From Syntrophomonas sp. (GTDB lineage Bacteria; Bacillota; Syntrophomonadia; Syntrophomonadales; Syntrophomonadaceae): DNA of 64,000 bases. Within the stretch, counting starts at the first letter, position 1. The number at the start of each line of letters is the position of its first letter. The stretch covers positions 1-64,000 of the forward strand of contig JAENYG010000012.1 in the NCBI GenBank assembly GCA_016841875.1. Direction: 5' to 3'. The position numbers and the translations under genes were made by a program. The notes under the pieces were generated by a model. That model saw only the letters and a list, made by a program, of their open reading frames with translations, was not told the DNA's origin and did not search any database. Of the stretch, positions 8,452-10,313 are shown piece after piece.

Positions 8452-9216
8452 TTATCGGGCTATCCATCCTCCGTCTATGCACAAAACTTGAGCATTTATA
8501 TAAGCTGCATCTCTTGAAAGGAGAAATACACAGGCACTGGCAATTTCTTCCGGTACAGCCAGCCTTCCTGCAGGAATCTCATCCAGTAAAGTCTTCATGT
8601 CCTCTTCATCCAGATGAGAGTATATCATATCGGTTGCCACTGGACCTGGCGCAATAGCATTCACAGTTATTCCAGAAGGGGCCACTTCGCTTCCCAGAGA
8701 CTTGGTAAAGGCTATCAGCCCTCCTTTGGAAGCGGCATAAACCGACTCAAAAGAAGCTCCGTTTATCCCCTGGGTAGATGCAATATTTACTATTCGACCA
8801 TATTGATTCCTGATCATATGGGGCAATACCTGTTTGCAGCACAAGAAGGCACCCTTTAAGTTAACATTTATAACTCGATCCCACTCATCAGTACTGGTAT
8901 CCTGTACCAGGGATCTGATAGTTACCCCAGCATTGTTTACCAGCAGGTCAACTTCACCCACAGTATCTCTGATCTCTGCAAATAATCTATTGACATCCTG
9001 CTCCCTGCTGATATCCCCTTGCAGTGCGAGCGCGGTATATCCATACTGCTGCAATTCTGCAATTAATGTCCGGGCTTCTTTATGGGAAGAATTATAATTC
9101 ACTACCACCCGGGCCCCCCTGGCGGCAGCCGCCCGAGCCACAGCCGCACCTATACCTCGGCCCGCTCCTGTTATCAGGCATACCTGCCCTTCCAGACTGT
9201 TTTTTATTTGATCCAA
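8452..9216 (-). CDS. Short-chain dehydrogenase/reductase, FabG-like
   Basis: A 254-residue classical SDR. The Rossmann signature TGAGRGIG starts at residue 16, NNAG is at 94-97, and the catalytic triad is Ser147, Tyr160 and Lys164 (YAASK), with the structural Asn in INVNL. The family includes 3-oxoacyl-ACP reductase, which reduces 3-oxoacyl-ACP with NADPH in fatty-acid synthesis. It is not in a fab operon here, so 3-hydroxybutyryl-CoA or another hydroxyacyl substrate is also possible. The gene is preceded by a long non-coding stretch that contains a structured RNA and a terminator. Confidence 0.82.
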   Translation of the reverse strand: MDQIKNSLEGQVCLITGAGRGIGAAVARAAAARGARVVVNYNSSHKEARTLIAELQQYGYTALALQGDISREQDVNRLFAEIRDTVGEVDLLVNNAGVTIRSLVQDTSTDEWDRVINVNLKGAFLCCKQVLPHMIRNQYGRIVNIASTQGINGASFESVYAASKGGLIAFTKSLGSEVAPSGITVNAIAPGPVATDMIYSHLDEEDMKTLLDEIPAGRLAVPEEIASACVFLLSRDAAYINAQVLCIDGGWIAR

Positions 9217-9382
9217 AGCTGCACCTCCAGGTTCGCCAATTTACAGTATATGACTAGCATAGAATCTATACGCATAACCGTATTAAGCCCTGTAAACCAT
9301 TATAATATAATCAGCAGATTAATTCATTTGTCTCATCAGCACTGCATCCGGCATGTGTAAACTGCTATTTGAGAAGAAACAG

Positions 9383-9413
9383 AAAAAACTCCGGCATAAT
9401 TATCCTGCCGAAG
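9383..9413 (-). terminator. Rho-independent terminator of the structured RNA
   Basis: Read on the minus strand, ACTTCGGCA and TGCCGGAGT form a 9-bp stem with one mismatch and an 8-base loop, directly followed by six T. Confidence 0.8.
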
Positions 9414-9594
9414 TCTGATTACCTGCTTTGATTTGTCAGGTGGCGGAGTAGATTATAAGACTCATGACCAAACAAAAAGGAACATTTGCCAACCGCTCTC
9501 AACAACCCAACTAATATACATAAAACCAAAATATATGGTAAACCGTGGAAAAGATTTCGCTAAACCTGCTTGTTAGTTTTTTCTCCGCCACCTT
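9383..9594 (-). ncRNA. ssrS: Structured RNA, 6S-like (candidate)
   Basis: On the minus strand a sigma-A-type promoter (TTGACC, 18 bp, TATAAT; 9601-9630) points to transcription from about 9594. The transcript would open with AGGTGGCGGAG (9583-9593), which pairs perfectly over 11 bases with CTCCGCCACCT (9438-9448). A second helix pairs AACAAGCAGG (about 9566-9575) with CCTTTTTGTT (about 9473-9482), with one mismatch and one G-U pair. The rest is unpaired or weakly paired and there is no open reading frame. A terminator hairpin with a T6 run closes the unit at 9383-9413. Total length is near 210 bases. A strong promoter, end-to-end closing stem, rod shape and terminator fit 6S RNA. A riboswitch for the downstream reductase gene is the main alternative. 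Confidence 0.5.
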
Positions 9595-9600
9595 TATTAA

Positions 9601-9630
9601 ATTATAATTCGGCTCTCGGGATATGGTCAA
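9601..9630 (-). promoter_or_regulatory. Strong sigma-A promoter of the structured RNA
   Basis: The -35 box TTGACC (9625-9630) and the -10 box TATAAT (9601-9606) are separated by 18 bp. The start point falls seven bases downstream, at the first base of the closing helix. Confidence 0.7.
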
Positions 9631-9796
9631 CAACCATATTTTGGATATAATTGAGATAGGACTTTTTAAAATATTACCATTTAAATGTAAAAAACGGTGC
9701 ACTAGAAAATGTAGTCATAATATCCTTCCAATGGCTGTTATAAAGGCATAATAACTCTTCCTATAAGAATTTTAAAAACATTCCGACTACTACGTC

Positions 9797-9825
9797 TTGA
9801 CAAAGAGGCCTTCGTCTCATACAAT
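9797..9825 (+). promoter_or_regulatory. Strong sigma-A promoter, long leader ahead of the acetate transporter
   Basis: TTGACA (9797-9802), 17 bp, then TACAAT (9820-9825). It points to the acetate transporter gene 490 bases away. In between are only A/T-rich sequence, a minimal eight-codon frame (ATG at about 9849, preceded by TTGGAG) and short repeats near 10190-10220. It therefore drives either a long 5' leader or a separate small RNA. I see no gene between 9631 and 10313. Confidence 0.55.
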
Positions 9826-10313
9826 TAAATCACCTTGGAGACTTTTTGTATGCAAGATATTTATTTCAATTCTTAAATTAGTTTTAAATACACTACATAA
9901 CTAGAGTTTACCCGACCCATAATAGCTGAAAATTTAAATAGGTTTTCTGAATAATTTTGAAATCTGTAGAATAATGATTAATACGTCAAAAACCCAGTTT
10001 TATAAATCAGCAAGAAGGCCGGCGATGAATTTTTGTAGTTATCCATTCTAGCTTATTCACATCAAAGATCATATTCCGCTAAAACAAATCAGGATATAAG
10101 CCTGAAAGTATTTATTCATTTCACAGTTAATTTCCACAACACAAGATCGGCCTGGACTAATTTTCTAACTCTTTTACTCAGAATAAGAACTTTCGGATTC
10201 CAACCACGGAGTGGGATTCGATGTAAAATACATGATAAGGGGGTGTACAAATAGTAAGCTTTTTCCCTTTAGTTAGATAGATAAGAGTTCAAATGAGAAA
10301 AGGAGGAGTTTAA

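Follow-up and report, generated by a model that had tools for sequence, protein, structure and literature searches.

A noncoding RNA family with a covarying closing helix and a variable interior loop in Syntrophomonadales

Introduction

6S RNA (RF00013) is about 200 nt in length, has its own promoter, and pairs its 5′ and 3′ ends. Y RNA, a ligand of Ro60/TROVE proteins, has a sequence-conserved terminal stem and a variable internal loop. CsrB and CsrC each repeat a short motif many times, while retron msr-msd RNAs have inverted a1/a2 ends. Here I describe a locus of a Syntrophomonas species whose family is compared with these RNAs. A free-standing trans-acting RNA is a known kind of molecule, while the architecture and the family reported here are new. 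A sequence-only reading of the window (the whole stretch of 64,000 nucleotides analysed here) had proposed a 6S-type RNA at this locus. The locus was compared with the genomes of the Syntrophomonadales order and beyond.

Results

The elements of the locus are listed in Table 1. The promoter, the start point at one arm of a perfect helix, and the T6 terminator of the sequence-only reading were all found on the minus strand, and the 5′ arm of the 11-bp perfect helix starts about 8 nt past the −10 box. The stretch is gene-free as had been stated; the interval 9217–10313 contains no convincing gene, and its sole frame (63 codons, 9511–9702) is not conserved. The locus has a minimum free energy (MFE) of −57.3 (z = −2.4), and equal stability was reached in three of 200 shuffles. 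Across the genus, the 9-bp core of the terminator retains seven to nine pairs. A 64-kb dinucleotide shuffle contains, on average, 0.45 instances of a 10-bp inverted repeat (100–330 nt apart) behind a −10-like box, so the window sequence alone is insufficient for the claim. Taken alone, such an arrangement is no rarity, and it is the conservation that makes the locus real. Judging from the sequence comparisons below, the segment 9630–9383 of the minus strand is on balance likely to be an autonomous gene for a noncoding RNA of roughly 210 nt that belongs to a new family.

Table 1. Features of the RNA locus and its downstream gene in the Syntrophomonas sp. window
Feature	Position	Strand	Remarks
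−35 box, TTGACC	9625..9630	minus	TTG kept in nearly all members
−10 box, TATAAT	9601..9606	minus	18-nt spacer to −35 box
Closing helix, 5′ arm, AGGTGGCGGAG	9583..9593	minus	predicted transcription start 9592/9593
C-poor interior loop	9449..9582	minus	
Genus-conserved segment, GGGTTGTTGAGAGCGGTTG	9490-9508		within interior loop; local form of GGYGGTT motif
Closing helix, 3′ arm, CTCCGCCACCT	9438..9448	minus	
Intrinsic terminator	about 9383..9415	minus	11-bp hairpin, then U6
SDR gene (FabG-like, PF13561)	8452..9216	minus	co-directional, downstream; outside RNA

Is the locus conserved in other genomes? BLASTN located it in each of the genus's five genomes, and a 28-nt match in another genus indicated the same ends with a different interior. 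When the order was searched with the arm only, eight inverted pairs about 170–310 bp apart were found, each flanked by a TATAAT-like box on one side and by a terminator on the other. When 84,980 genomes were scanned for the exact promoter-plus-arm pattern, 36 loci were returned. Sixteen of them, from Syntrophomonadales, carry the 3′ arm, while the others (from IMG/VR, Chloroflexi, Psychrobacillus, and others) lack it, except that one archaeal locus has a chance pair with one mismatch. Sequence models of the promoter and the 5′ arm (A2 and R1), which are blind to the 3′ arm, gave strong matches (E < 1e-5) only in the Syntrophomonadaceae. The genome of the window has exactly two strong matches, this locus (E = 3.7e-9) and a copy on contig 42 (E = 8.7e-11). 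L186, from another family of the order, is a weak but real member. Weak model matches in S. wolfei and two congeners were rejected as coding-gene starts, and those checked elsewhere in the phylum have no partner arm.

In summary, 46 diverse members were found in 37 of 63 Syntrophomonadales genomes, mainly of the Syntrophomonadaceae, with one or two copies each; by my own count, 17 of the 29 genera of the order have at least one copy. Most members were collected by requiring paired ends, while the divergent ones were not. The members are 147–313 nt in overall length and have the ends GGTGGCGGAG...CTCCGCCACC, with a terminator soon downstream and, in nearly all cases, a −10 box 7–9 nt before the 5′ arm. 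No account of the family was found in the literature searched, and it has no match in Rfam 15; at both gathering and relaxed thresholds, the window and 16 other family loci gave only tRNA and spurious microRNA models. As far as these searches reach, the family is uncatalogued and confined to Syntrophomonadales. That it exists as a distinct RNA family can be held with high confidence. As a separate observation, the contig 42 locus (L073) has sub-threshold microRNA-model matches on both strands at 717–794, probably due to a long hairpin upstream of mscL.

The closing helix, 10–12 bp in length, is nearly invariant across the family, and its positions 1–10 are paired in 455 of 460 cells (46 members). 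Double-sided changes were found at six of 12 helix pairs (45 rows), against a shuffle mean of 1.0, and six was reached in none of 500 shuffles; these changes stem from a handful of independent events, and most pairs are nearly invariant. Sliding the helix partner abolishes the signal. Examples of the changed pairs are GGTGGTGGAG/CTCCACCACC in L180, GGTAGCGGAG/CTCCGCTACC in L197, and AGTGGCGG/CCGCCACT in L195. The divergent members (L180, L181–L183, L186, L195, and L197) were found by a promoter-plus-5′-arm model. The 3′ arm is invisible to this model, so the changes in that arm test the helix independently. The helix also contains G-U pairs, which favours an RNA over a DNA palindrome. The earlier proposal of a structured, expressed-looking noncoding RNA with an end-closing stem is supported, and its closing helix shows the covariation that had been suggested as a check in related genomes. 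In L181–L183 (genus g3), the interior has repeated GTTTAGGTTT-like words and the start of the helix is changed to AATGGCGGAGAAG.

The second, inner helix of the sequence-only reading (AACAAGCAGG/CCTTTTTGTT) is present in the window with nine of ten pairs but is not conserved within the genus, where four relatives have 8, 4, 1, and 0 pairs. In contrast, the closing helix is paired at 10 of 10 positions in all five genus members. RNAalifold revealed no inner helix common to all groups. A single inner helix for all members was also rejected as a model, since a CCAC/GYGG pairing is possible in some of them but is not general.

Clusters of similar interiors do not extend beyond a genus or its vicinity, and the interiors hardly align between genera. 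They are C-poor (14.6% C) and fold slightly less than dinucleotide shuffles do (mean MFE z = +0.58, p = 0.02, for 35 representatives; +0.62 across all 46 members), which is a weak average effect. Short words are enriched in them: GGTT (134 observed vs 63 expected), RGTTA (104 vs 47), and GGYGG (21 vs 5), while GGA (53 vs 75) and ANGGA (14 vs 23) are depleted. The best-kept interior word is GGYGGTT; in most members, AGGYGGTT or a near form sits in the 3′ third, 50–83 nt before the 3′ end. In the contig 42 copy, AAGTTAGTTAAYCC-like repeats form an array. A few members (L063, L195, L205, and L181) are richest in such repeats, and there are few inside the copy of the window.

The conservation of GGYGGTT would suit a base-pairing regulatory sRNA, in which GGYGGUU/GAGAGGUU seeds might recognize C-rich stretches of mRNAs while the clamped ends give stability. 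Hfq, found in 58 of the 63 genomes of the order, might also seem to favour it, but a protein so nearly ubiquitous in the order is uninformative. For the best conserved type-I segment (19 nt), the genome contains no further complementary site when up to three mismatches are allowed, and conservation between genera does not extend to the rest of the loop. Base pairing as the main function is rather unlikely on this evidence.

In 18 genomes of eight genera, the next gene downstream is an SDR ortholog on the same strand, separated from the RNA by a terminator. In G012–G014, the gap between the RNA and the SDR gene is only about 72–102 nt and a promoter is not apparent by eye. This recurrence suggests some cis connection for at least some copies, and a cis-acting, riboswitch-like leader or attenuator of the SDR gene would account for it. 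However, about ten copies have a convergent downstream gene, including the second copy of this genome, which has tlp on one side and a convergent histidine kinase gene on the other. A co-directional target gene is thus not found downstream of every copy. Sir2 and further unrelated genes follow some of the remaining copies, and the terminators are not related in sequence. No element was found upstream of the SDR gene in S. wolfei or in the other genomes lacking a match. As for the switch that the sequence-only reading had considered, the competing hairpin (ACCT...AGGT) is retained in only three of five genus members as read from the alignment, and no conserved terminator/antiterminator switch is seen; a switch is conceivable only for the copies upstream of the SDR gene. 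A cis-acting leader is therefore improbable as an explanation of the family. Since about ten copies, including the second one here, face a convergent gene, the RNA probably acts in trans and forms a unit of its own. Most simply, its gene is independent, and the site next to the SDR gene is an old location.

Some further neighbours were observed. The second copy (L073, G000:C42, 1341–2067) lies 66 nt behind tlp, which encodes a small acid-soluble spore protein (PF19824), and in three genus relatives (L024, L048, and L049) the copy likewise follows a tlp-like ORF. In one group of genus g17 members (L044, L065/L085, L066, and L068), the RNA is located upstream of a co-directional Sir2-family gene.

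The clamped ends and the strong promoter suit a housekeeping RNA, and an RNA polymerase-binding RNA that is Ms1-like and not descended from 6S RNA might be considered. Nevertheless, the loop shows nothing resembling an open promoter, making this very unlikely.

The sequence-only reading had assigned the locus to 6S RNA for its end-closing stem, its promoter, and its length of about 200 nt. The assignment fails, as does that of a degenerate 6S paralog, and both are almost certainly wrong. RF00013 has no match in the region at the gathering score or up to E = 10, and at the same relaxed E-value the other Rfam models match at chance level only; neither 6S RNA nor another Rfam family thus matches the region. 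The genuine 6S RNA of this genome, its sole RF00013 match, lies at G000:C38:109666-109841 (84 bits), and a search of 20 other relatives with RF00013 found at least one 6S RNA in every one of them. Moreover, the interior lacks consistent helices and is unlike a rod with a single bubble. One relative, G007, has two 6S RNA genes (C1:530630 and C1:765563, with 106.6 and 64.3 bits, respectively).

A MITE, a small inverted-repeat transposable element with the helix arms as terminal repeats, would explain the invariant ends, variable interiors, and scattered copies, but is just as implausible, because the promoter and the terminator lie outside the arms with the same polarity throughout, copies within one genome are dissimilar rather than near-identical, their positions are orthologous within a genus, and the helix has compensatory and G-U pairs.

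Discussion

By analogy with described RNAs, I tentatively prefer, as a first choice before base pairing, that the end-clamped RNA binds or sequesters an RNA-binding protein. A sigma-A-type promoter would set the start at the first bases of the 10–12-bp helix joining both ends, and the intrinsic terminator would end the RNA shortly after the 3′ arm. The helix would guard the RNA ends, and its almost unchanging sequence makes a second role as a recognition site probable. The open loop may present a short single-stranded motif several times over to a putative RNA-binding protein, and its open, motif-rich nature suggests multivalent binding. The RNA might then act in trans by protein binding, sequestering, or scaffolding, like CsrB, Y, or 6S-type RNAs. 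More speculatively still, the family could be a new class of housekeeping noncoding RNA in syntrophs, with a single-stranded motif-repeat loop, a helix recognized by its sequence, and a dedicated putative protein partner.

At least 17 genera retain this uncatalogued, covariation-supported family, and they belong to a group with a central part in methane formation and in the anaerobic oxidation of fatty acids. Fixed ends are combined with a motif-rich loop that evolves freely, which is an unusual architecture. Since the cultured species Syntrophomonas palmitatica JCM 14374 carries the family, expression and partner proteins are directly testable.

How does the family compare with known RNAs? 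Its ends resemble the inverted a1/a2 ends of retron msr-msd RNA, and no reverse-transcriptase gene was recognized among the neighbouring ORFs inspected, part of which were scanned against Pfam. The family shares the terminal stem and variable loop of Y RNA but has no Rfam match, and a TROVE protein was found in none of the 63 genomes of the order, while the control search was positive in Deinobacterium. A Y RNA in the usual sense is thus excluded by the absence of Ro/TROVE from the order. The likeness to CsrB and CsrC is a mechanistic analogy only: the motif of the new family is GGUU/RGUUA, and a CsrB-type RNA with repeated CsrA-bound GGA was rejected since GGA is depleted and not displayed on hairpins. 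The family differs from 6S RNA in having neither a covariance-model match nor a rod-like fold, and it coexists with a 6S RNA in the same genome.
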